64,000 nucleotides of DNA. Source: Burkholderia cenocepacia. Lineage in GTDB: Bacteria > Pseudomonadota > Gammaproteobacteria > Burkholderiales > Burkholderiaceae. Under the pieces are notes generated by a model, which ran no database searches, was not told where the DNA came from, and worked only from the letters and a program-made list of their open reading frames with translations. The stretch spans positions 434,001-498,000 of the forward strand of contig NZ_CP060041.1 of assembly GCF_014211915.1 (NCBI RefSeq). Reading direction: 5' to 3'. Below, one piece after another: positions 30,311 to 57,423 of this stretch; position 1 is the first letter of the stretch, and the number at the start of each line of letters is the position of its first letter. A program made the translations under genes and the position numbers.

Positions 30311-30603
30311 GTCACGTCGGCGTGCAAGCAAGCACGCCTTTCGATACGCGCAACCGCTCGTCCATCCCCTCCGCATGGCCGGCCCGAATCGCCTGAACAG
30401 GCATTCGGGCCGCGCGTCGTCGCTGCCCTTGCGCTCCGTCGCCCTGCTCCGCGAAACCGGCTCGCGCGTGGCCGCCGCAGGCAGCGATTCGTGACTGCGC
30501 AGTACAAGTTCTTATGCCGCTTCATCCGTTTATCCGGCACGCGCCGCGCACGATACTTCGCACCGTCAGGCGCCACGCGCCCCACTCGCCATCTCGTACG
30601 CAT

Positions 30604-31803
30604 ATGAACCGATATCCAGGATTGAAGCGCATCGCGCGATCGGCCGCGCTGGCCGCCGTTCCGCTGGCCGCGCTCGTCGCGTTGTCCGGCTGCCAGTCGG
30701 ACGACAAGGCCCCGGCCACGACGCCGAGCGTGATCGTCAGCGCGCCCGTCGCGCGCGACGTCAACGACGTCGACGTCTACACCGGCCGCTTCGAGGCGGT
30801 CGACACCGTCGACGTGCGCCCGCGCGTGAGCGGCTATCTCGACAAGGTCGCGTTCCAGGACGGCGCGACCGTCCGCAAGGGCGACCTGCTGTTCGTCATC
30901 GACCCGCGCCCGTACCAGGCGGCCGTCACCGCCGCGCAGGGCGCGCTCGAACGCGCGCAGTCGCAACTGAAGCTGAGCCGGCAGGATTTCGAGCGCGCGA
31001 GCATCCTGATCAAGACCGACACGATCGCGCAGAGCCTCTACGACCAGCGCAGGCAGGCGGTGCAAAGCGCGCAGGCCGAGGTGACCAGCGCGCAAGGCGC
31101 ACTCGAACGCGCGCGGCTCGACCTGTCGTTCACGCGCATCGTCGCGCCGATGTCCGGCCGCATCAGCCGCAAACTCGTGAGCGAGGGCAATCTCGTGAAA
31201 GGCGGCGACAGCGACGCGACCGTGCTGACGACGATCGTGTCGCAGGACCCGATCGACATCTACTTCGACGTCGACGAGGAAAGCTACCTGCGCTATACGC
31301 GCGAAGCACGGAAAAGCGGCGGCAACGCGTCGTCGCGGCAGGTCGCGATCGCGCTGCCGGGCGACGTGCAGCCGTCGCTGACGGGGACGATGGATTTCGT
31401 CGACAACCGTCTCGACGACTCGACCGGCACCCTGCGCCAGCGTGCGCGCGTCGCGAATCCGGACCGGCGCCTGAGCCCTGGCCAGTTCGGCCGCGTGTAT
31501 CTGTCGAGCCGCGTCGCGCACCCTGCGCTGCTCGTGCCGGATGCGGCGGTCGCGACCGATGCGACGCGCCGCGTGCTGTACTTCGTCGACGCGAACGGCA
31601 CCGTCGCGATCCGCCCGGTGACGCCCGGCCGCCTGTACGGCAACCTACGCGAGATCGATGCGGGGCTGAACGCGGGCGATACCGTGATCGTCGACGGCTT
31701 CCAGCGCGTGCAGGCCGGCGACAAGGTCAAGGCCGTGCCGCGCGCGATCGAAGCGGCCGCGGTGGCCCGCGCGGCGAGCGGCACGACCGGGAGCGCGCAA
31801 TGA
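30604..31803 (+). CDS. RND efflux periplasmic adaptor (membrane fusion) lipoprotein, MexE-like
   Basis: A 399-residue adaptor with lipobox LVALSGC (Cys30) after a basic N-terminus, so it is anchored to the inner membrane. HlyD-type core: VDVRPRVSGYLDKVAFQDGATVRKGDLLFVIDPRPYQAAV (lipoyl half), a helical hairpin (AQSQLKLSRQDFERA ... YDQRRQAVQSAQAEVTSAQGALE), then LSFTRIVAPMSGRISRKLVSEGNLVKGG. It links the RND pump and outer-membrane channel encoded next. ATGA overlap with the pump gene. No clear Shine-Dalgarno precedes the ATG. A 293-bp gap upstream contains the presumed operon promoter. Confidence 0.93.
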   Translation: MNRYPGLKRIARSAALAAVPLAALVALSGCQSDDKAPATTPSVIVSAPVARDVNDVDVYTGRFEAVDTVDVRPRVSGYLDKVAFQDGATVRKGDLLFVIDPRPYQAAVTAAQGALERAQSQLKLSRQDFERASILIKTDTIAQSLYDQRRQAVQSAQAEVTSAQGALERARLDLSFTRIVAPMSGRISRKLVSEGNLVKGGDSDATVLTTIVSQDPIDIYFDVDEESYLRYTREARKSGGNASSRQVAIALPGDVQPSLTGTMDFVDNRLDDSTGTLRQRARVANPDRRLSPGQFGRVYLSSRVAHPALLVPDAAVATDATRRVLYFVDANGTVAIRPVTPGRLYGNLREIDAGLNAGDTVIVDGFQRVQAGDKVKAVPRAIEAAAVARAASGTTGSAQ

Positions 31804-34800
31804 ACCTCGGCCGCCTGTCCGTCCAGCAGCCGGTGCTCGCGATCGTCCTGTCGATCGTGCTGACGATCGCGGGCGCGCTGGCCTATTTCTCGCTCGCGGT
31901 ATCCGAGTATCCGGACATCGCGCCGCCGACCGTCGTGATCCAGGCGACCTATCCGGGCGCCTCCGCGGAAACGGTCTCGCAAACGGTGTCGACGCCGATC
32001 GAACTGGAAGTGAACGGCGTGGAAGACATGCTGTACATGTACAGCCAGGCGACGTCCGACGGCAGCCTGAACATCACCGTGACGTTCAAGCCCGGCACCG
32101 ACGTCGACAAGGCGCAGGTGCTCGTGCAGAACCGCGTCGCGCTCGCGACGCCGCGTCTGCCCGAGCCCGTGCAGCGCAGCGGCGTGTCGGTACGCAAGTC
32201 GTCGCCGACGCAGCTCGGCACGATCTTCCTGTACTCGCCGGACCAGCGCTACGATCCGCTGTACGTATCGAACTATGCGATCCGCAACGTCGCGGACGTG
32301 CTCAAGCGGATCGAAGGCGTCGGCGACATCAACGCGCTCGGCGCGCGCGAATACTCGATGCGCATCTGGCTCGACCCCGAGCGCGTCGCGTCGTTCGGCC
32401 TGAGCCCGGCCGACCTGATCGCCGCGGTACGCGCGCAGAATACGCAGCTCGCGGGCGGCGTGGTCGCGCAGGCGCCGATCACGAACCAGGCGTTCCAGCC
32501 GAACCTGGTCTTCGAGGGGCGGCTCAAGCGCCCCGAGGATTTCAGCGACATCGTCGTCAAGCAGGGCAAGGACGGCAGGCTCGTGCGGCTGAAGGACGTG
32601 GCTCGCGTCGAAGTCGGCGCGCTCGCGTATGCGACCGACAGCTACATGCTGCGCCATCCGACGATCGCGCTGCAGGTGCTGCAGCAACCCGGCGCGAACG
32701 CGGTCGCGACGATGGCCGCGGTCGAGAAGAAGATGGCCGAACTGTCCCGCGACTTCCCGAAGGGCATCGTCTACAACATCGGCTACAACCCGACCGCGTT
32801 CATCGGCGACAGCATCCACGAACTCGTCAAGACGATCTACGAAGCCGTCGTGCTCGTCGTGTTCGTCGTGCTGCTGTTCCTGCAGGGCTGGCGGCCGTCG
32901 ATCATCCCGATCCTGTCGATTCCGGTATCGCTCGTCGGCACGTTCGCGGCGATGGCCGTGCTCGGCTACTCGATCAACAACCTGACGCTGTTCGGCCTCG
33001 TGCTCGCGGTGGGGATCGTCGTCGACAACGCGATCGTCGTGGTCGAGAACGTCGAGCGGCACCTGGCGGCCGGCGCCGGGCCACGCGACGCGACGCTGCT
33101 GACGATGAAGGAAGTCGGCGGCGCGCTGTTCGCGATCACGCTCGTGCTGTGCGCGGTGTTCGTGCCGACCTCGTTCATTCCCGGCATCTCGGGCCAGTTC
33201 TTCCGTCAGTTCGGCGTGACGATCGCCGTGTCGACCGCGATCTCGTTCTTCACGTCGGTGACGCTCGCGCCCGCGCTGTCCGCGATGATGCTGAAAGCGC
33301 ACGCCGGCGACCATGACGCACCCGCGCCGACCTCACGCATCGCCATGCTGTTCGCGCCGGCGATGCGCGTCGCGCGACGCTTCTCGAACGCGTTCAACCG
33401 CCTGTTCCAGCGCCTGTCCGATGCGTATGGCCGGCTGGTCCGGAAAGTCGTCCGGATCATCCCCGCCATGACCGCACTGTACGTGGTACTGATTGCCGCA
33501 ACCGGCTACCTGCTCGTATCGAGCCCGAAGGGCTTCATTCCCGCGCAGGATCGCGGCTACCTCGTCGTGCTCGTGCGGATGCCCGACGGCGCGACGCTCG
33601 AACGCACCAGCGCGGTCGCGCGCAAGATCGAGGACATCGCGCTGTCGGTGCCCGGGGTCGCGCGCGTACCGGTGTTCTCCGGCGTCAACGCGGCGACCGG
33701 CACGAACTCGGCGAACAGCGCCGGCCTGTTCCCGGTGTTCCAGCCCTGGCCGGAACGCAAGGCGCGCGGCCTGACGATCGACACGATCGCCGCCGAGATG
33801 CGCAAGCGGCTCGCGACCATCACCGAAGCGTCGATCGTCGTCGCGATGCCGCCGCCGGTGCAGGGGCTCGGCAGCACGGGGGGCTTCGCGATGCGGCTCG
33901 AAGACCGCAACGGCCTCGGCACCGCCGCGCTCGCGAAGGCGACGCAGGATCTCGTCGCGGCCGCGAACCGCACGCCCGGCATGGTCGGCGTCTACACGCC
34001 CTACTCCGCGACGAGCCCGCAGGTGCACGTCGAACTCGACCGCGAGAAGGCCGAGATGCTCGGCGTGCCGAGCCAGGCGATCAACGATGCGGTCGAGACG
34101 TATTTCGGTTCGACCTACATCAACGACTTCAACATCGTCGGGCGCACCTATCGCGTGACCGCGCAGGCGGACTTGCCGTTCCGCGTCGGCGCGTCGGATC
34201 TCGCGCGGCTGAAGGTGCGCAACCGCGACGGCGAGATGGTGCCGATCGGCAGCGTGACGCGCATCGACGACATGCTCGGCGTCGACCGCGCACCGCGCTA
34301 CAACCTGTATCCGGCCACCGAAATCAACGGCGATACCGCGCCGGGCCTCGGCTCGGGCTTCGCGATCAAGACAATGGAGACGCTGGCGAAGCAGGTGCTG
34401 CCGCCCGGCATTTCGTTCGAGTGGACCGATCTGTCGTATCAGCAGACCACGGCCGGCAACACGGGGCTGCTCGTGTTCCCGCTGTGCGTGCTGCTCGTCT
34501 ACCTGGTGCTCGCCGCGCAGTACGGCAGCTGGAGCCTGCCGGTATCGATCCTGCTGATCGTGCCGATGTGCCTGCTGGCCGCGTCGCTCGGCGTGCGCGC
34601 GCTCGGCCAGGACGTGAACATCCTCACGCAGATCGGCTTCATCGTGCTGGTCGGGCTCGCCGCGAAGAACGCGATCCTGATCGTCGAGGTCGCCAGGCAG
34701 CTGGAGGCCGACGGCGCCGAGCTCGTCGAGGCCGTCGTCGAGGCATGCGTGCAGCGGCTGCGCCCGATCGTGATGACGTCGCTCGCGTTCATCCTCGGCG

Positions 34801-34991
34801 TGCTGCCCCTCGTGATCTCCGAAGGCGCGGGTGCGGAAATGCGCCAGGCCGTCGGCGCGGCGGTGTTCTTCGGGATGATCGGCGTGACGTTCTTCGGGTT
34901 GCTGTTTACGCCCGTGTTCTATGTGATGGTTCGCCGGCTCGCGATGCGCAAGACCGCTGTCGCAGCCGTCGCGACGGAGGCTGTGCAATGA
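31800..34991 (+). CDS. RND multidrug efflux permease, HAE-1 family (MexF-like)
   Basis: A 1063-residue inner-membrane proton/drug antiporter, full length for HAE-1. Twelve membrane segments with two large periplasmic loops: TM1 VLAIVLSIVLTIAGALAYFSLAV, then EYPDIAPPTVVIQATYPGASAETV. In TM4, GLVLAVGIVVDNAIVVVENVERHL holds the two proton-relay aspartates (DD pair replaced by V-D-N with the family Asp). QYGSWSLPVSILLIVPMCLLAASLGVRALGQDVNILTQIGFIVLVGLAAKNAILIVEVARQ is TM9-TM11. Overlaps both neighbouring genes by ATGA. Substrates cannot be read from the sequence. Confidence 0.95.
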   Translation: MNLGRLSVQQPVLAIVLSIVLTIAGALAYFSLAVSEYPDIAPPTVVIQATYPGASAETVSQTVSTPIELEVNGVEDMLYMYSQATSDGSLNITVTFKPGTDVDKAQVLVQNRVALATPRLPEPVQRSGVSVRKSSPTQLGTIFLYSPDQRYDPLYVSNYAIRNVADVLKRIEGVGDINALGAREYSMRIWLDPERVASFGLSPADLIAAVRAQNTQLAGGVVAQAPITNQAFQPNLVFEGRLKRPEDFSDIVVKQGKDGRLVRLKDVARVEVGALAYATDSYMLRHPTIALQVLQQPGANAVATMAAVEKKMAELSRDFPKGIVYNIGYNPTAFIGDSIHELVKTIYEAVVLVVFVVLLFLQGWRPSIIPILSIPVSLVGTFAAMAVLGYSINNLTLFGLVLAVGIVVDNAIVVVENVERHLAAGAGPRDATLLTMKEVGGALFAITLVLCAVFVPTSFIPGISGQFFRQFGVTIAVSTAISFFTSVTLAPALSAMMLKAHAGDHDAPAPTSRIAMLFAPAMRVARRFSNAFNRLFQRLSDAYGRLVRKVVRIIPAMTALYVVLIAATGYLLVSSPKGFIPAQDRGYLVVLVRMPDGATLERTSAVARKIEDIALSVPGVARVPVFSGVNAATGTNSANSAGLFPVFQPWPERKARGLTIDTIAAEMRKRLATITEASIVVAMPPPVQGLGSTGGFAMRLEDRNGLGTAALAKATQDLVAAANRTPGMVGVYTPYSATSPQVHVELDREKAEMLGVPSQAINDAVETYFGSTYINDFNIVGRTYRVTAQADLPFRVGASDLARLKVRNRDGEMVPIGSVTRIDDMLGVDRAPRYNLYPATEINGDTAPGLGSGFAIKTMETLAKQVLPPGISFEWTDLSYQQTTAGNTGLLVFPLCVLLVYLVLAAQYGSWSLPVSILLIVPMCLLAASLGVRALGQDVNILTQIGFIVLVGLAAKNAILIVEVARQLEADGAELVEAVVEACVQRLRPIVMTSLAFILGVLPLVISEGAGAEMRQAVGAAVFFGMIGVTFFGLLFTPVFYVMVRRLAMRKTAVAAVATEAVQ

Positions 34992-38851: not shown

Positions 38852-40021
38852 TCACCGCCCGTCGCCGAGCGACCCGAGAATCCGGTAGGCGACCTTCACG
38901 CGGTCCTCGATCGGCACGTTGCCGTTCGCGAGCATCACGATCCCGATCCGCTTCGCGGGAACGAACGCGACGTACGTGCTGAAGCCACCGGTCGAGCCCG
39001 TCTTGTTGATCCAGGTCGCGGGGTTCGGCGCGAGCGGCGGCTGGATCGCGCTGGCCGGCACCGCGTCGAACAGCATCTTCGGCGCGTTGCCGGCCAGCAG
39101 CGTCGGCAATGCGACCGGGTACGGATACTGTTCCCAGATCAGGTCCTGCGTCAGCGGCCCCGCGCGGAAATAGCCGGCGTGCGTGCGTTCGATCGCGCGC
39201 TGCAGGCGCGGCGCCGTCTGGATCATCCCCAGGTTCGCCTGCACGAAGCGCAGCAGGTCGGCCGCCGTGGTCCGCACGCCGTACGCCGGCTGCCACAGCA
39301 TGCCTTGCGTCATCCGCACCGGCTTGCCGTCCTTCGTGTAGCCCTGCGCATAGTCGGCCATGCGCGCGGCGGGCACGTCGATGTACGTGTGCGTCATCCC
39401 GAGCGCGGGAAAGAGCCGCTGCTCCATCAGTGTCGCGAAATCCTCGTGCATCGCCTTCGCGGTGAGCCAGCCGAGCATGCCGATCGCGACGTTCGAATAC
39501 TTGCGGTGCGTGCCCGGCGCATACTCGGGCCGCCACGCGTCGAGGTAGCGGATCAGGTCCGCATCGTCGCGAATGCTGTCCGGCACCTGCAGCGGCGTCC
39601 CGCCGGGCGTGTGCGTGCCGAGCTGAAGCAGCGTGACGACGCCGAACGGCTTGCCCTGCAACTCGGGCAGATATCTGGCCACCGGGTCCGCGAGCGACAG
39701 TTCGCCGCCCTCCTGCGCGTCCGCGGCGAGCGTCGCGGTCAGCGTCTTGCTGACCGAACCGATCTCGAAGAGCGTGTCGCCGGTCACCGGCTTGCCGGTC
39801 TGCTTCGACATCACGCCGTAGTCGAACACCTGCGGCTTGCCGTCGGCGACGATGCCGATCGCCATGCCGGGGATCGCATACTGCTTCATCAGCGGCGCGA
39901 TATGGCGCGTGACGGTGTCGTGGAGGTCGTCCTGCGTGACGGCGGCCGCGCGACCGGCCGTGGCGGTCGCGCATGCGGCGACGAACAGGGTCGCGGCGAC
40001 ACGTGTCGCATTGAATCGCAT
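38852..40021 (-). CDS. ampC: Class C beta-lactamase (AmpC)
   Basis: A 389-residue serine beta-lactamase. An export signal (RFNATRVAATLFVAACATATAGRAAA) is followed by the mature domain with all class C motifs: S89-V-S-K92 (GSVSKTL), Y175-S-N177 and K340-T-G342. VTQDDLHDTVTRHIAPLMKQYAIPGMAIGI is the expected mature start. It would hydrolyse cephalosporins in the periplasm. No ampR gene lies upstream, where the usual divergent regulator would be; 612 bp without a recognised gene is found there. The ATG at 40021 is preferred over 40060 because it starts the signal peptide. Confidence 0.92.
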   Translation of the reverse strand: MRFNATRVAATLFVAACATATAGRAAAVTQDDLHDTVTRHIAPLMKQYAIPGMAIGIVADGKPQVFDYGVMSKQTGKPVTGDTLFEIGSVSKTLTATLAADAQEGGELSLADPVARYLPELQGKPFGVVTLLQLGTHTPGGTPLQVPDSIRDDADLIRYLDAWRPEYAPGTHRKYSNVAIGMLGWLTAKAMHEDFATLMEQRLFPALGMTHTYIDVPAARMADYAQGYTKDGKPVRMTQGMLWQPAYGVRTTAADLLRFVQANLGMIQTAPRLQRAIERTHAGYFRAGPLTQDLIWEQYPYPVALPTLLAGNAPKMLFDAVPASAIQPPLAPNPATWINKTGSTGGFSTYVAFVPAKRIGIVMLANGNVPIEDRVKVAYRILGSLGDGR

Positions 40022-40633
40022 GAGGGCGGTTCCTTCTATTTCCGATGGTTGCATGGACAACAGATCCGGCCGCGCCGCGCGGAAAAGGCGGCGGCCGTCC
40101 TGTCGAAGCAGGACTATCCGCTACCGTCCGACCGCCAACAATCGACGATATGTTGCGCGAGCCGAAAGAAAAACTTATGAAATAGGCGGAATGCGGGACG
40201 AGGCAGCCGCCATGGCCGGACCACTCACCCGTTTTCCGGGAAAACCTGTCGGTTTTAACAGCATCGAATCCGGCGGCCGAATGGCGCCGCGTCGAAAATC
40301 GACGAAAAAGAGATAAGTCTTGTCAGATCCACGGGTGCCGGCCAGCCGCGCGATTGATTCATCCGCACGGATCGAAGTAGACTCGCGGAAGCCAAAAATA
40401 AGATCCGACCTGAGAGAATCCATGAATCGCCCTTTTCCGCTCGTCCGCTCCCGAGTCATCGGCTCCCGCGCGCTCGCGTGACGTTCACGCACCGCCCGAC
40501 CTGAACCGGACTACGCGACGCCGCCGCGTTTGTTTGCGCGCGTACGCTCGTCGTTTCGCCGTTGAGTCAGAAGAACCGCCAGGGTCCCGCGCGCACCGCC
40601 CGCGCACGCCCTGCCCGACCGGAGAGTGAGCCC
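40022..40633. other. Intergenic region upstream of ampC and the PcfJ operon
   Basis: 612 bp between divergent genes. A short open frame on the minus strand (40175-40492) has no recognisable features. A 6-bp inverted repeat CGTCGA / TCGACG (40290-40304) is the only structure seen. The region must contain both promoters. Confidence 0.5.
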
Positions 40634-41941
40634 GTGACCGAAACCTTGGCCGCGTCGGCCTATCGGCCGCGCGATGTCGTCAATGCGCCCGACATCAAGG
40701 CGGCCATCGCCCGCCGCAGCGCCGCGCGCGGCGATCCGGCCGAGATCCGCGCATGGCTCGGCAATCATTTCTTCCGCTGGGTCGTCGGTGCGTTCGAGCA
40801 GGCGCAGCCGCTCGCTTCGCTCGCCGATTACCGCGCGCTCGCCGGCGCCGACCGGCCGGCACCCGAATGGCTCGTGCGCCGGTTCCGCGCGCAACCGGCA
40901 TCTGCGACCCCCGCGACCTCCGGCGCGGCGGCCGACGCGGCGCTACCGCCCGCCGCCGAGCCGACGCCGCTCTACTTCATCGATTCCGAGCACATGCTGC
41001 TGATCGATCGCGAACGCGTGCTGGTCGAATTCCTGCGCTCGCGCGCCGGCACGCGGCTCGCGCAGAAACTGCAGCGCATCACCTGCGCGATGGCGCTCGA
41101 CATGTGGGAACGCGAGCACCAGCGGATGCAGGCGCGCCGCGACAAAGGCTGGGTGCCGAGCAGCGGCCTCGCGCTGCGCGAGGTACTGCGTACGCCGAAC
41201 GGGATCGTGTTCGAATTCGTCGGCGATCATGCGGCGCTGCGTGAGGAGCTCGCGTACGAGTCGTACTACATGCAGCACTGCCTCGGCCAGTTCGCCGATC
41301 GCCGCCGGTTGCGCGGCGGCTACGGCGAGCAGTACGCGCAAGCCGCGCGGGACGGCCGGCTGCGCCTGTTCACGCTGCGCGGCGCGGGCAACCAGCCGCA
41401 TGTGACGATCAGCCTGCAGGTCAGCGGCGACGGCCTGCGCATCGACCAGATCAAGGGCAAGCAGAATCGCCATCCGGTGCGCCGCTATGCCGACGACGTC
41501 CGCCAGTTCCTGCGCGCGCTCGCGCCGCGCGGCGAGCGTCACCCCGATTGCGAGGGCATGGGCCTCGTGTTCGAGCCGGATGCACCGGGCGCGGCCACCG
41601 GCGCCTGGACCTTCGTCACCGACGTGCGCTCGCCCGACCATCTGCTGAGCGTGATGAGCGCCAACTTCCATCTGATCGAGCATTTCGAGCAGCCGCCGGC
41701 CGTGCTGCAATGGCTGCTGTTGCGCAACGCACCCTATGCGCTCGGCCAGTTGCGGCAGATCGATCCGGCCGTCGCGGCGGCCGCGCGCCATGCGTTGCCG
41801 GCCGATGCGCTGCCCGCCGCGCGCACGCCCGACGCACCGCCGGCCACGGCCGCATTCGAGATCGAAGGCATCGCGATCGATCCCGCGCTGTGCGCGGCGT
41901 TCGCGTTGCCCGTGCCGGCGGACGGGAGTCCATCATGCTGA
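40634..41941 (+). CDS. PcfJ-like protein, first gene of three-gene operon
   Basis: A 435-residue protein if started at GTG 40634, which has GGAG 9 nt upstream; a TTG at 40562 would add 24 basic residues. The PcfJ-like core lies at residues ~205-300: SYYMQHCLGQFADRRRLRGGYGEQYAQAARDGRLRLFTLRG, PHVTISLQV and IDQIKGKQNRHPVRRYADDVRQFL, the H-C-x-G ... S/T-L-R ... V-x-G-x-x-N-R pattern. The family was named from conjugative plasmids, and its activity is unknown. A Pro/Ala-rich segment and FAL/EGIAI tail follow. Overlaps the DUF1266 gene by 7 bp. Confidence 0.8.
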   Translation: MTETLAASAYRPRDVVNAPDIKAAIARRSAARGDPAEIRAWLGNHFFRWVVGAFEQAQPLASLADYRALAGADRPAPEWLVRRFRAQPASATPATSGAAADAALPPAAEPTPLYFIDSEHMLLIDRERVLVEFLRSRAGTRLAQKLQRITCAMALDMWEREHQRMQARRDKGWVPSSGLALREVLRTPNGIVFEFVGDHAALREELAYESYYMQHCLGQFADRRRLRGGYGEQYAQAARDGRLRLFTLRGAGNQPHVTISLQVSGDGLRIDQIKGKQNRHPVRRYADDVRQFLRALAPRGERHPDCEGMGLVFEPDAPGAATGAWTFVTDVRSPDHLLSVMSANFHLIEHFEQPPAVLQWLLLRNAPYALGQLRQIDPAVAAAARHALPADALPAARTPDAPPATAAFEIEGIAIDPALCAAFALPVPADGSPSC

Positions 41942-42717
41942 AACTGCTGCTTGGCGCGGCCGTGCTATGGCTCGTGTGGTACGTATGGCGCTCGTTCCGG
42001 GTCGCCGCGCGGCTGGTGCGCGAAGTCGACGCCGACCAGGCCGCGGGCGCCGACGGCGCGGTGCCGGTGCGGCAAACCACGGCCGTCCGGCTCGCGCATG
42101 CGCAGGCCGAGCAGGCGCCGCCGAACCGCCGCCGCTGGGCGCTCGCGCTGGCCGACATCCTGCTGATCCGCAACGGGCTGCGCTGCGATTGCGACGACCT
42201 CGTCTATACGCTGCCGGACTCGCAGCGCGAACAGCTCGCGCGCCAGCTGCGGCGCGAACTCGACCTGCCGGCCGACCTGCCCGAGTGGCAAATCGTGCAG
42301 CGCGTGCCGTCGATCCTCGCGGGCTGGATTCGCGGCGTCGGTCGCTCGCACGACGGCTTCTACGAGCAACTCGCCGCGCTCGGGCGCGTGCGCGACGCAC
42401 TCGCGTTCGACTGCGCGCGCACCGCGTTTCTCGTGCGCTGCATCGCGCTGCTCGGCTGGGCGTCCGAACAGCACGCGTGGGTCGTGCTGCTGCTCAATGC
42501 GCAGCGCGCGCAGGACAGCTTCGACAGCTGGGAAGATTTCGGGCTCGCGTATGCGCGGGCGCGCCAGCAGTGGCTGCGCGGCAGCGGCCAGGACGGCCCC
42601 GCGTCGTCGCGCGCCACGCAGGAAGTGCGCGAGCACCTGCGCAATCCGTCCGGAAACTGGCTTGCGCTGCCGTGGAAGCGCTACCGCATCTTCGATCCCC
42701 AACCCGTTTCGTCATGA
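41935..42717 (+). CDS. DUF1266 domain-containing membrane-anchored protein
   Basis: A 260-residue protein. One N-terminal membrane segment (MLKLLLGAAVLWLVWYVWRSF) anchors it, probably with the rest in the cytosol, since the segment is followed by Arg. Residues ~60-250 fit DUF1266: RRWALALADILLIRNGLRCDCDDL and especially DCARTAFLVRCIALLGWASEQHAWVVLLLNAQRAQDSFDSWEDFGLAYARARQQW. The family has no known activity. It overlaps both neighbours (7 bp and ATGA), so the three products are made in fixed proportion and may form a complex (inference). Confidence 0.82.
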   Translation: MLKLLLGAAVLWLVWYVWRSFRVAARLVREVDADQAAGADGAVPVRQTTAVRLAHAQAEQAPPNRRRWALALADILLIRNGLRCDCDDLVYTLPDSQREQLARQLRRELDLPADLPEWQIVQRVPSILAGWIRGVGRSHDGFYEQLAALGRVRDALAFDCARTAFLVRCIALLGWASEQHAWVVLLLNAQRAQDSFDSWEDFGLAYARARQQWLRGSGQDGPASSRATQEVREHLRNPSGNWLALPWKRYRIFDPQPVSS

Positions 42718-44720
42718 CCGCCGATACCGACATGTCCTCCGCTTCCGCCGACCTGATTCCGCCCGCGCCATCCCGCTGGCACATTTGCGACGTCGACGCG
42801 CTGCTGCGCGCGGGCGACCATGCCGCGCTCGACGCGCAACTCGATGCCGCGCTCGCCGCCAGCTTCGCCGATCGCACCGCCGAAGCGCGATACGTCGACG
42901 CGCTGCCGGCCGACGTGCAGCCGTGCATCGACGCCGGCGCCGAAGGCCTCGCGCGCCTGCGCGCGTGGCAGGCCGCGAACCCGCGCTCCGCGCATGCATG
43001 GCTGTGCGAAGCGCATTACTGGCATCACTGGGCCTACGAGTACCGCGGCAGCGGGTGGGCCGAAACGGTGACCGAAGCCGGCTGGATCGGCGCGCATGCG
43101 TGCGCGACGCTGACGCTCGTCGCCGCGCTGCGCGCGCTGGTGCTCGCGCCGACGATGTGGAGCGCGCCGATGGTGATCTTCACGAGCGTGTCGTCGTTCG
43201 GCGAACCCGAGTGGCTCGCGCAGCTCGTGCGCGAGCGCCGCTGGCCCGTCACCGAGTTGCACCTGAACGCCGGCGCCGAGGACGAAGCCACGCGCGCCGA
43301 ACTGCAGCACATGTTCGCGCGTTCGGGACTGAATCCCGACGTGCCGGCCGCCTGCCCGCCGGAATTTCCCGACGCGCTGCCCGGCGCCGTCCAGGGCAAG
43401 AAGCTGCGCAAGGAAAAGTGGTACTGGATGGAGGCGACGCTGCACATCCACCCGACGCTGTTCTTCCCGATGCGCACGTTCATCTGGTACATGCAGCCGC
43501 GCTGGGGCGGCTCGCACGATCACATTCGCGCGTTCGTCGCGTCCGACGCGTGCGCGCACCTCGATGCGATCGAGAAGGACCGGCTGCTGCACGAGATCTG
43601 GCGCGACGACTACGCCGGCAACACGCTCGACGCGGATGACGACGAAGACGATGCGCGCCGCGCGATGACCGCGACGCTCGCGCGTGCGCAGGCCGCGCTG
43701 CATCCGTACCACCGCTGGGAGACGCTGCACTGGCTCGCGTACAGCCATTTCAAGCGCAGCGAGTACGAACAGGCCTACGCGCGGCTGCAGGAAGCCGAAC
43801 GCAACGAGCCGATCGACGACAACCGCGCCATGGCGATGGGTTTGCGGCTGGCGCTCGGCCTCGATCCACAGGGCGGCTGGCTGCCCCGCGCGATCGAACG
43901 TGCATCGGACGCACGCGCCTGCACGTCGGCGATGATCCTGCGCGGCTACGCCCATCGCACCGGCACGTTCGGCTTCGCCCAGGACGACGCGCGCGGCGAC
44001 GCCTGGCTCGAAGCCGCGCGCGAGAATGAGCCCGGCTCGCTCGCATGGAACCAGATCGCCACCGCGTTCGAGTATGAAAACCGGCGCCCCGCCGATGCCC
44101 TCGCCATCTGCCAGCTCGGCTACGAGGCGGGCGGCGATTCGTGCGACTACCTGCTCGGCTGCTTCTACAAGGAAGGCATGCATGTCGAGGCCGACCCGTA
44201 CCGCGCCGCCCACTACTTCCGCGAATCGATGGAGGCCGGCGGCAACATGGCAGCGTACCGGCTCGGCTACACGTACCATCACATCGGGCAGACCAGCACG
44301 GACCGTGCCGAACGCGTGCGCATGCAGACCGAGGCCGTCGAGGCCGCGCGCAAGGCGCACGAGATGGGGCATACGGACGGCCTGGAGTGCATGCTGATGT
44401 TCATCGGCGACATCGAGGACTATCCGTCGCGCCATCGCTACGTCGACGAACTGCGCCGACATGCCGAAGGCGGTCACCCGGCCGCGATGGCCGCGCTATC
44501 GTTCTTCCTTGCCGACATCAACGACAAGTCGCTGTACGACTATCGCGAAAGCGTGCGATGGATCATGGGCGCCCAGGCCATCGCACCGGACGACGAATAC
44601 GTGCTGAACATCACGCGTGTCAGCCACGAAGACGGCATGCTCGGGAAGCTTCGCTACAAGCTGCAGCGCAAGCAGATCAAGGCGCACGAGATTCCGGGCG
44701 CCGACAACGCGATGGTCTGA
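42714..44720 (+). CDS. DUF4034 protein with Sel1-like repeats
   Basis: A 668-residue protein, third gene of the PcfJ-DUF1266 operon (ATGA overlap). The N-terminal ~330 residues match DUF4034: WHICDVDALLRAGDHAALDAQLDAAL, LRAWQAANPRSAHAWLCEAHYWHHWAYEYRGSGWAETVTEAGW, and RKEKWYWMEATLHIHPTLFFPMRTFIWYMQPRWGGSHD. The rest is TPR/Sel1-like helical repeat: HWLAYSHFKRSEYEQAYARLQEAERNEP, and DYLLGCFYKEGMHVEADPYRAAHYFRESMEAGGNMAAYRLGYTY. Such repeats mediate protein contacts. No signal peptide is seen. Its function is unknown. Confidence 0.85.
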   Translation: MTADTDMSSASADLIPPAPSRWHICDVDALLRAGDHAALDAQLDAALAASFADRTAEARYVDALPADVQPCIDAGAEGLARLRAWQAANPRSAHAWLCEAHYWHHWAYEYRGSGWAETVTEAGWIGAHACATLTLVAALRALVLAPTMWSAPMVIFTSVSSFGEPEWLAQLVRERRWPVTELHLNAGAEDEATRAELQHMFARSGLNPDVPAACPPEFPDALPGAVQGKKLRKEKWYWMEATLHIHPTLFFPMRTFIWYMQPRWGGSHDHIRAFVASDACAHLDAIEKDRLLHEIWRDDYAGNTLDADDDEDDARRAMTATLARAQAALHPYHRWETLHWLAYSHFKRSEYEQAYARLQEAERNEPIDDNRAMAMGLRLALGLDPQGGWLPRAIERASDARACTSAMILRGYAHRTGTFGFAQDDARGDAWLEAARENEPGSLAWNQIATAFEYENRRPADALAICQLGYEAGGDSCDYLLGCFYKEGMHVEADPYRAAHYFRESMEAGGNMAAYRLGYTYHHIGQTSTDRAERVRMQTEAVEAARKAHEMGHTDGLECMLMFIGDIEDYPSRHRYVDELRRHAEGGHPAAMAALSFFLADINDKSLYDYRESVRWIMGAQAIAPDDEYVLNITRVSHEDGMLGKLRYKLQRKQIKAHEIPGADNAMV

Positions 44721-44766: not shown

Positions 44767-45579
44767 TCACCCCGGCAGCCGGTCGAGAAACGCCAGCATC
44801 GCCGCATTGAACCGCGCGGGCCGCTGCAGCGGCGCGAAATGGCTCACGCCGGGCAGGATCGTCAACGTCGCGCCGGGGATCGTCCGCGCGAGGTATGCCG
44901 CATGCTCGGGCCGGATGAATTCGTCGTGCTCGCCCTGCACGATCGCGACCGGTACGGCGATCGCCGCGAGATCCTGCGCGGTGTAATTCGGTTGCGTGCG
45001 CATCATTTCGCTGACGGCCGCGACGAACGCGTCGAACTGCTCCGGCGTCGCGGACAGTCTCACATAGTCCTTGCGATGCCGCGCGAAGCAGCGGTCGATC
45101 AGCGGGCTCGGCGCCATCTCCTTCGTGCCGCCCGGATCCATGTTGCAGGCGAAGAAGAACACGCCGGCCGCGCGTTCCGGTGCGCGCGCGGCCAGCACGA
45201 GCGCGATGCATGCGCCGTCGCTCCAGCCGACGAAGCGTGCATGGTCGACCTGCAGCGCGTCGAGGACGGCCAGCACGTCCGATGCCATGCGTTCGTAGGA
45301 GTAGGGGCGTTCGTCGCGCGTGCTCCGGCCGTGGCCGCGGCTGTCGATCACGATCGCGCGGTAGCCGGCCGCGAGCAGTGCCGGCACCTGGTTGCCCCAG
45401 TTGCCGCCGTGGCCGAGGCCGCCGTGCAGCAGCACGACCGCCGGCCCCCGGCCGAACGACGCGTGCCAGATGCGCGCGCCGTCGTGGTCGAGCCACCCTT
45501 CGGCGTCGGCTGCCGGCAGCGGCGTGCCGCCGTGCGCGTCGAAGCGAATGAGTTCGTCGTCGTCGAGTTCCGCATTCAT
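44767..45579 (-). CDS. Alpha/beta hydrolase
   Basis: A 270-residue alpha/beta-hydrolase. Oxyanion region LLHGGLGHGGNWGNQ (residues 51-64), nucleophile elbow G-W-S120-D-G, acidic residue region QGEHDEFI, and catalytic His in GVSHFAPLQ. It is close to 3-oxoadipate enol-lactonase or general esterase types but not assignable. GAGGATGG precedes the ATG. Convergent with the DUF4034 gene, 46 bp away; unrelated neighbour on the other side. Confidence 0.92.
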   Translation of the reverse strand: MNAELDDDELIRFDAHGGTPLPAADAEGWLDHDGARIWHASFGRGPAVVLLHGGLGHGGNWGNQVPALLAAGYRAIVIDSRGHGRSTRDERPYSYERMASDVLAVLDALQVDHARFVGWSDGACIALVLAARAPERAAGVFFFACNMDPGGTKEMAPSPLIDRCFARHRKDYVRLSATPEQFDAFVAAVSEMMRTQPNYTAQDLAAIAVPVAIVQGEHDEFIRPEHAAYLARTIPGATLTILPGVSHFAPLQRPARFNAAMLAFLDRLPG

Positions 45580-55526: not shown

Positions 55527-56566
55527 TGCCGCTCCTTGACCGTGACCGCCGCGCGATCGCCACGCCGCAGCGACGCCACGATGCGTTCGCCCAGCCCCCA
55601 CAACCCGCGCTGCATGAACAGGCTGACCGCGATCAGCACGAGGCCGAGCAGCAGCAGCCAGCGCGGCCACAGCGTCGACAGCCAGTCCGCGAACAGCACG
55701 TAGAACGCCGCGCCGAGCACCGACGCGAACAGGTTGCCCGTGCCGCCGATCACCGTCATCACGAGGATCATTTCACTCGTGTGATAGTCGATGTTCGACA
55801 GCGGCGCGATGCCCGTCATCAGCGCGTGCAGCGCCCCCGCCAGGCCCGTGACCGCGCCCGAGATCACGAACGCCGCGAGCTTGAAGCGTTTCACGTCGTA
55901 GCCGGCCGCCGCCGCGCGCGCCTCGTTGTCGCGAATCGCGAGCAGCGTGCGGCCGAACACCGAGCGCGACACGCGCAGCAGCAGCCAGAACACCGCGACG
56001 AACAACACCGCGACGAAGCCGTAGTAACGCCACGGCGAATCCAGCGCGACGAGCGGATGCCCGAACGCGGCGAGCGCGGGGCGCGGGATGTCGAGCAGCC
56101 CGTTGTCGCCGCCCGTCACATCCGGCGTCGTATACGCGAGGAAGTAGAACAACTGCCCGAACGCGAGCGTCAGCATCACGAAGTAAGTGCCGCGCTGCCG
56201 GATCGAGAACCAGCCGACGAGTGCGGCCGCGACGGCGCCGAGCACCGCCGCCGCCAGCAGCGCGACGCTCACCGATGCGACACCGCGCGTCAGCACCAGC
56301 CCCGCCGCGTAGCTGCCGAGCCCGAAGAAGATGCCCTGCCCGAACGACAGCAGGCCCGTGTACCCGAGCAGCAGGTTGCAGCCGAGCGCGGCGAGCGCGA
56401 ACACCAGCACTTCGGTCGCGAGCGAGCCCGAACTCAACACGAGCGGCAACACGCACGCGGCGACCACCGCGAGCCAGCCTTCCGGCCGCTGCAGCACGCC
56501 GCGCCACGGCCGCGGGCGTTGCGACGCCGCCGCGCCCGGCGGCAACGGTTTCGACGAATCGATCAT
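55523..56566 (-). CDS. Branched-chain amino-acid-type ABC transporter permease (LivM-like)
   Basis: A 347-residue inner-membrane permease with about ten membrane segments. FALAALGCNLLLGYTGLLSFGQGIFFGLGSYAAGLVL is the N-terminal LivM signature, and GRTLLAIRDNEARAAAAGYDVKRFKLAAFVISGAVTGLAGALHALM the E-A-A coupling loop. A polar N-terminus (PPGAAASQRPRP) precedes. ATGA overlaps with both livH-like and livG-like genes. Confidence 0.94.
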   Translation of the reverse strand: MIDSSKPLPPGAAASQRPRPWRGVLQRPEGWLAVVAACVLPLVLSSGSLATEVLVFALAALGCNLLLGYTGLLSFGQGIFFGLGSYAAGLVLTRGVASVSVALLAAAVLGAVAAALVGWFSIRQRGTYFVMLTLAFGQLFYFLAYTTPDVTGGDNGLLDIPRPALAAFGHPLVALDSPWRYYGFVAVLFVAVFWLLLRVSRSVFGRTLLAIRDNEARAAAAGYDVKRFKLAAFVISGAVTGLAGALHALMTGIAPLSNIDYHTSEMILVMTVIGGTGNLFASVLGAAFYVLFADWLSTLWPRWLLLLGLVLIAVSLFMQRGLWGLGERIVASLRRGDRAAVTVKERQ

Positions 56567-57423
56567 GCGGCCCTCCCCAGCAAACCGTTCGGACGCAGCA
56601 GCAGTACGGCCGCCATCGCGACGTAGATCATCAATCGCGCGCCTTCCGGCCACAGCGTGCTCATCAGGCTCTGCACGATGCCGACCAGCAGCCCGCCGAC
56701 GAGCGCACCGAGAAAATTCCCCATCCCGCCGACGACGACCACGACGAACGCGACGCCGAGCGCCTCGATCCCCATGAACGGATCGACGCCGCGGATCGGT
56801 GCGGCGAGCACGCCGGCCAGCGCGGCCGTCGCCGCGCCGAGCGCGAACACGAGGCTGAACACACGCGTCACGTTGATGCCGAGCAGCGACACCATCTCCG
56901 TCGACTCGCTGCCCGCGCGCACCGTACTGCCGAGCCGCGTACCTTCGAGCACCCACCACAGCAGCGCGGCGAGCACGGCCGTGAAGCCGATCACGAACAG
57001 CCGGTACTTCGGATAGACGAAGCCGCCCCAGATCACGACGCCGTTCAGCGCGTCGGGCGGCGGCACGTTGTCGCCGAGCGGGCCCCACGCGAGGATCGCG
57101 CACTCCTGCAGCACGAGCGCGAGGCCGACCGTCGCCAAGATGTGAAATTCGTGCTGCTGCGCGTACACGTGGCGCAGCACCAGCTTCTCGACGATCCATG
57201 CGAACGCGCCGACGACGAGCGGCACGATCGCGAGCGCGACCCAGAAATTCGCCGACCATTGCAGCGCCTGGTAGCAGAGATACGCGCCGAGCAGATAGAA
57301 CGCGCCGTGAGCGAAATTCACGAAGCGCAGCAGGCCGAACACGATCGACAGGCCGACGGCGAGCAGGAAATACAGCATGCCCACGCCGATGCCGTTGACG
57401 ATCTGCAGCAGATAGACGTTCAT
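56563..57423 (-). CDS. Branched-chain amino-acid-type ABC transporter permease (LivH-like)
   Basis: A 286-residue permease. MNVYLLQIVNGIGVGMLYFLLAVGLSIVFGLLRFVNFAHGAFYLLGAYLCYQAL is the LivH start with the G-L-x-x-x-N-F-A-H-G motif. The coupling region is STEMVSLLGINVTRVFSLVFALGAATAALAGVLAAP. The ATG at 57423 starts this motif; upstream codons do not fit. It lies 70 bp after the binding-protein gene and overlaps livM-like gene by 4 bp. Confidence 0.94.
   Translation of the reverse strand: MNVYLLQIVNGIGVGMLYFLLAVGLSIVFGLLRFVNFAHGAFYLLGAYLCYQALQWSANFWVALAIVPLVVGAFAWIVEKLVLRHVYAQQHEFHILATVGLALVLQECAILAWGPLGDNVPPPDALNGVVIWGGFVYPKYRLFVIGFTAVLAALLWWVLEGTRLGSTVRAGSESTEMVSLLGINVTRVFSLVFALGAATAALAGVLAAPIRGVDPFMGIEALGVAFVVVVVGGMGNFLGALVGGLLVGIVQSLMSTLWPEGARLMIYVAMAAVLLLRPNGLLGRAA

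Follow-up and report, generated by a model that had tools for sequence, protein, structure and literature searches.

A 64,000-nucleotide stretch of Burkholderia cenocepacia DNA (contig NZ_CP060041.1, positions 434,001 to 498,000 of the forward strand; hereafter, the window) carries three overlapping genes, g1, g2 and g3, that encode a PcfJ-related, a DUF1266 and a DUF4034 protein, respectively. The three genes almost certainly constitute a single unit. Across homologous loci, the module very likely consists of g1, g2 and one of two unrelated-looking large partners, which were never seen together in one locus. We tentatively favor a reading in which the products form a DUF1266-held, possibly membrane-bound, transferase-like complex whose substrate would be chosen by the large partner. 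The analysis turns three families without a function into one testable unit, in which a fixed g1-g2 core is combined with two alternative large partners. The two types of large partner and a possible GNAT-like core in g1 are points beyond a preliminary description of this DNA, which was made from the sequence alone. In the open-access literature that we searched, we found neither a description of the three-gene module as a system nor a paper on DUF4034.

Organization of the locus

The gene overlaps given in the preliminary description (7 bp and ATGA) were confirmed by direct reading of the sequence. The genes and their overlaps are as follows:

40634-41941, + strand: g1, PcfJ-related protein of 435 amino acids (GTG start, read from the sequence)
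41935-42717, + strand: g2, DUF1266 protein of 260 amino acids (PF06889, E = 1.2e-19)
42714-44720, + strand: g3, DUF4034 protein of 668 amino acids with a TPR/Sel1-like solenoid (ATG start at 42714; PF13226, E = 6.4e-64)
41935-41941, + strand: 7-bp overlap of g1 and g2 (sequence reading)
42714-42717, + strand: 4-bp ATGA overlap of g2 and g3 (sequence reading)

The family labels first assigned to these proteins stand in part. DUF1266 in g2 (71.6 bits against a cut-off of 27 bits) and DUF4034 in g3 (216.4 bits against 21.3 bits) exceed the Pfam thresholds, whereas g1 scores below the gathering cut-off of the PcfJ-like family PF14284 (19.4 against 25 bits, E = 0.001) and g3 far below that of the Sel1 repeat PF08238 (12.8 against 30.7 bits), its solenoid fold being given by a structural model. 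A scan of the three proteins against NCBIfam returned nothing above its cut-offs. Among g1 relatives, 15 of 24 match PF14284 at E <= 0.01 (best E, 5.4e-8), and five listed relatives (e.g. P0041 and P0048) carry precomputed PF14284 assignments. The aligned relatives are 38-97 per cent identical to g1, and the closest are from Burkholderia, including B. cenocepacia; the source genome itself (four contigs, 7.6 Mb) has one g1 locus. In public records, three relatives from Delftia (P0074, P0075 and P0077) bear the name 'collagen alpha-1(I) chain', apparently through misannotation.

Conservation of the module and its two large partners

The best 80 of 113 confirmed g1 matches in a genome scan were kept, which gave 79 loci. 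Because these loci were retrieved with g1 motifs (and alignment A1 included fused proteins), the co-occurrence described here applies to this g1 subfamily and need not extend to PcfJ, DUF1266 or DUF4034 proteins in general. A DUF1266 gene directly follows g1, or is fused to it, in 78 of the 79 loci, the exception (L032) being a contig that ends just past g1. A large partner likewise completes the unit in 78 loci, and the contig of the exception (L068) starts inside g1. The partner is of the DUF4034 type and lies downstream in 26 loci; in 52 of the other 53, it is a TPR-like protein encoded directly upstream of g1 (in two frames in L051 and cut by the contig start in a few loci). Both types together were seen in none of the 79 loci. 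All loci are from Pseudomonadota except L042, a Desulfovibrionaceae bin, and the three-gene order of the window is found unchanged in other beta- and gammaproteobacteria. When neighboring genes of the 79 loci were clustered, using a rough gene caller of our own and genus-level labels, the four module clusters spanned 23, 18, 13 and 11 such labels and every other neighbor cluster six at most.

In a control sample of 65 genomes of the genus, 26 genomes carry both g1 and g2, each of the two at 27 places in total, and no g1 was seen without g2. Full-length g3 lies beside 18 of the 27 g1 places and a TPR-like protein beside eight (the G284 copy is in two frames); in G323, g1 begins at the contig start. 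The weak Sel1-like matches present in all 65 genomes are other proteins. One genome lacking both g1 and g2 has an incomplete TPR-like match, spanning positions 6-658 of 781 (G289:C14:81285-83252), possibly a relic. In the family sample, where g1 was counted alone, it occurs in 17 of 249 genomes (in two pieces in G467). Among the 274 genomes of a class-wide sample, g1 is found in two, both with an adjacent DUF1266 gene; DUF4034 is found in six and DUF1266 in seven, mostly without g1, and both families are therefore broader than the module. The gene order kept in the 79 loci and in the 65-genome control bears out the preliminary view of one coupled unit, and within this g1 subfamily the unit is kept beyond close relatives.

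In the g1 phylogeny (79 rows), there is one change between partner types (support of 100/99), L068 being assigned to the TPR group by default. The g2 tree, reconstructed with FastTree, has the same two-way split; for both trees, the program warned of joins between long branches. Distances for the TPR-like protein were taken from 48 of 52 rows, those longer than 600 amino acids, and the co-evolution measures include shared descent. In Burkholderia, both partner types occur on distant branches of the tree, and B. paludis has both (L022 and L038), so the module was inherited or moved as a unit.

Fused g1-g2 proteins are encoded in eight loci, located in the g3 clade (L048, L050, L069 and L087) and in the TPR clade (L042; L047, L072 and L078), and a protein search returned further fusions from Rhizobium and Lysobacter. 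The fusions arose separately at least twice and probably three times. Because of these natural fusions, it is highly probable that g1 and g2 bind each other physically.

The alternative large partners differ in sequence and in position. A model of g3 (predicted local distance difference test [pLDDT] score, 92.0; predicted template modeling score, 0.83) is nearly all alpha-helical, and two regions of the protein are recognizable:

42780-43604, + strand: g3 residues 23-297, DUF4034 region, helical in the model (Pfam and model)
44685-44717, + strand: g3 C-terminal tail HEIPGADNAMV (alignment; residues 665-668 are disordered in the model, pLDDT <50)

The protein ends in DNxMV in 17 of the 26 loci, and four enteric g3 proteins end in VNPMV. 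The TPR-like partner has approximately 780 residues (e.g. L031:5659-8004) and, in 48 of 52 copies, a conserved WWxxW ending; two such proteins were scanned against Pfam and gave sub-threshold TPR matches only. Homology of the two partners was considered and is undetectable by hhalign (probability of 1.8 per cent), although the two may share an origin.

A possible GNAT-like core in g1

We modeled a natural g1-g2 fusion from L078 (pLDDT 90), a homolog of the g1 protein in the window, and mapped the model to g1 by alignment. Three features of g1 stand out:

41159-41668, + strand: residues 176-345, core with a GNAT-like order of strands and helices (L078 fusion model, mapped by alignment)
41276-41281, + strand: His215-Cys216, invariant HC pair (invariant alignment columns)
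41447-41467, + strand: residues 272-278, QIKGKQN, at the beta4-to-alpha3 turn of the core (alignment and mapped model)

The QxKGKQN motif is invariant among the aligned g1 relatives, and in the L078 model its position corresponds to the GNAT cofactor-pyrophosphate site; the invariant His-Cys pair is located after the first helix of the core. In a structure comparison (VIA) with this model, 36 of 50 rows are titled acetyltransferase and two more HAT1. These rows fall almost wholly on residues 170-343, and the DUF1266 part is barely covered. The top rows of a Foldseek search against BFVD are PcfJ-like phage models (E = 8.2e-9, with a probability of 1.00, and E = 2.1e-8).

The conserved residues recur in distant phage PcfJ-like proteins. 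Among 84 distinct segments, with per-column counts that vary because of gaps, His215 is retained in 33 of 35, Cys216 in 34 of 35, Arg249 in 53 of 56 and Thr258 in 52 of 57. The phage loci were retrieved with Q[IV]KGKQN or YESxxM[QR]HC patterns, and conservation of QKGKQN among them is partly built in; 31 of 33 phage segments have G at position 210, so few of these can derive from the HC search pattern. Sequence searches of the PDB returned nothing under E = 0.6 for g1, a best E of 0.95 for alignment A1 and no match for alignment A6; for g2, the best match (E = 0.003) was to a designed protein.

We know of no activity established for PcfJ-like proteins. We judge it somewhat probable that g1 possesses a GNAT-like core; that it is a working transferase falls a little short of an even prospect.

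A proposed complex and a non-enzymatic alternative

In the reading that we favor, g1, g2 and the large partner would form one complex. A hydrophobic segment at the N-terminus of g2 would likely hold g1 at the cytosolic face of the inner membrane, as hydropathy suggests:

41935-41994, + strand: g2 N-terminal hydrophobic segment, predicted membrane anchor (hydropathy, mean of 1.97 over 17 residues)

The solenoid of the large partner would likely bind a client. With less certainty, the QxKGKQN loop of g1 may bind an acyl or aminoacyl donor, the conserved His-Cys region may face the acceptor, and the complex may modify a protein or small molecule delivered by the solenoid. A different solenoid would alter the client and leave the chemistry unchanged. 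It is doubtful, but conceivable, that PcfJ-like proteins as a whole are a divergent branch of GNAT-fold transferases, of which the module would be a tamed cellular form: a DUF1266-held modifier with its client set by either large partner.

Several results bear on the strength of this reading. The final G/A of the GNAT pyrophosphate loop, which we take to be Q/R-x-x-G-x-G/A after beta4, is absent from the g1 loop Q-x-K-G-K-Q-N, in which the Q and G agree. No significant GNAT match was returned by Foldseek for the L078 fusion model, and profile comparison of g1 with GNAT or LF-transferase found no homology, although the GNAT/LF-transferase pair itself also went undetected. The GNAT resemblance of the modeled core is to be taken as suggestive, not significant. 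Five fused g1-g2 proteins in the alignment, inspected by eye, have no hydrophobic helix at the junction. The membrane-linked complex of the preliminary description holds unevenly: its g1-g2 part is strongly implied by the natural fusions, whereas a membrane link through the g2 N-terminus is plausible.

A non-enzymatic, chaperone-like or scaffold assembly, in which a DUF1266 adaptor would join the solenoid to varying partners and g1 would bind clients, is the main rival, though on balance unlikely, and has evidence from outside the module. In Escherichia coli K-12, a DUF1266 gene is followed by a J-domain gene in both ybeR-djlB and ybeU-djlC, with 4-bp overlaps (L093:4212-9164), and these pairs are accompanied by hscC, an Hsp70-type gene, and by two Sel1 genes. 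This neighborhood suggests that DUF1266 is a common adaptor, and it may be a general partner in coupled gene pairs. In the available part of a Dickeya study, hscC, a YbeS-like J protein and a DUF1266 protein are tabulated under consecutive gene numbers (PMC6329079). However, no cluster other than those of the module is conserved with it beyond six genus-level labels, and the invariant residues of g1 cluster in one part of its core and recur in phage PcfJ-like proteins. Elsewhere in the class-wide sample, the neighbors of DUF1266 genes are mixed and without a common partner (scanned at three loci, plus a single gene at another). According to excerpts from other studies, hns mutants of E. coli 042 show raised levels of a DUF1266 gene (PMC7582179), ynjI has received an IS10 insertion (PMC10044804) and, in a SlyA study, ybeT and ybeU-hscD are among the raised transcripts (PMC5797941).

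Enteric, plasmid and phage copies

In three E. coli records, the interval from yegQ to yegP-baeR holds PcfJ, DUF1266 and DUF4034 genes together with a fourth, small gene. The fourth gene, after DUF4034 (L088:15595-16200), has no Pfam match at E = 0.01. In E. coli SCU-485 (L090:9486-11418), the PcfJ and DUF1266 genes are annotated as frameshifted and the DUF4034 gene is not. By blastn, g1 has matches in 297 of 5426 E. coli genomes, and in none of them does the match cover 80 per cent of the Citrobacter query. In a 302-kb Salmonella plasmid record, a copy of the module adjoins baeSR, followed by a TPR gene at the place of the fourth gene. From position and size, we infer that STM2133-2135 of Salmonella Typhimurium is this module.

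These copies bear on an immunity or defense module directed against rival bacteria or phages, an improbable explanation. The Salmonella yegQ site, next to the approximately 700-amino-acid STM2135/t0737, takes up an islet of type VI secretion system and contact-dependent inhibition immunity genes, SAIDI-1, which, in the part of the report available, is missing at this site from most salmonellae (PMC7400221). The patchy distribution of the module (26 of 65 species of the genus, 17 of 249 genomes of the family and the E. coli fraction given above) and the occurrence of distant PcfJ-like proteins in many phage contigs also fit such a role. In six viral contigs (L104-L109), a 47 per cent identical relative of g1 lies near the contig end; it probably belongs to E. 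coli host sequence that flanks a prophage located at yegQ. Against the immunity explanation, the module lies outside the SAIDI-1 islet, and no INPHARED phage record matches g1 at E = 1e-5. The defense role raised in the preliminary description found no support in PADLOC either: the three module proteins matched no family at E up to 1. We also scanned 133 of 179 listed flank proteins (43 of the 79 loci, one protein per homologous cluster, 90-900 amino acids). Matches to 20 PADLOC families were single and scattered, 10 of the 20 being methyltransferase models, and, with no background set, give no sign of enrichment. The flank Pfam families (25 of 191 seen) are mostly transporters, regulators and metabolic enzymes, with some of flagellar type. 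A defense-island setting was considered and found no support in these scans.

Still less probable is a complex that regulates motility or the envelope. Deletion of STM2133, which would be g1 by gene order, is tabulated as hypermotile in a Salmonella screen (1.08 +/- 0.10 and 1.55 +/- 0.46; PMC4219756, available in part), and the enteric modules adjoin baeSR-mdt genes. The effect is, however, a small one from one plate screen, and the flanks differ in other genera. Plasmid records matched by the E. coli relative P0048 (eight, of 0.3 to 1.3 Mb) and by the window DNA (three) are all typed as non-mobilizable. PcfJ was named from conjugative plasmids, but the conjugation-related role for which that name is the argument is very improbable and was rejected, since no matched plasmid is mobilizable and no transfer gene is conserved among the neighbors of the 79 loci.

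Surroundings of the module in the window

The nearest recognizable upstream neighbor is a gene of the beta-lactamase family (serine hydrolase; 38852-40060, - strand), and a 105-amino-acid open frame lies on the - strand between it and g1 (40175-40492). On the far side of g3, the nearest recognizable neighbor encodes an alpha/beta hydrolase (44767-45579, - strand). Promoter and terminator patterns at the three-gene unit show no excess over shuffled sequences, and an Rfam scan of the whole window returned no match. Upstream of the module, positions 30514-34991 hold RND efflux genes, which Pfam matches mark as HlyD-like and AcrB-like; an RND operon near both the module in the window and its enteric copies is probably a coincidence. 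The A-over-T skew is highest among 1-kb steps at 56001-57000 (0.378), where we found no long tandem repeat to account for it.

Comparison with known systems

SAIDI-1 is inserted beside the inferred g3 of Salmonella, but, as far as the available text of its report goes, is a separate insertion of immunity genes (PMC7400221). Compared with Sel1/TPR repeat proteins such as LceB and LGN, g3 is distinguished by its helical DUF4034 region and by the conservation of its C-terminal tail. The modeled g1 core resembles GNAT-fold transferases (HAT1, RimL, FemX and LF-transferase) in the order of its strands and helices and in a QxxG where b4 turns into a3. PcfJ-like proteins of phages and plasmids share with g1 the core and the residues HC...Y...R...P..T...QxKGKQN, whereas the g1 group forms a subfamily on chromosomes or chromids, has fixed partners and, in its window member, scores below the Pfam cut-off. 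If true, the GNAT-like reading would supply a chemical hypothesis with named residues for that phage and plasmid family, and it may account for DUF1266 beside solenoid genes in E. coli K-12. The K-12 locus ybeQ-ybeR-djlB-ybeT-ybeU-djlC-hscC resembles the module in the 4-bp overlaps between its DUF1266 genes and another gene and in the adjacent Sel1 genes; it differs in its gene order and in having J-domain and Hsp70-type proteins in place of the PcfJ-like protein.

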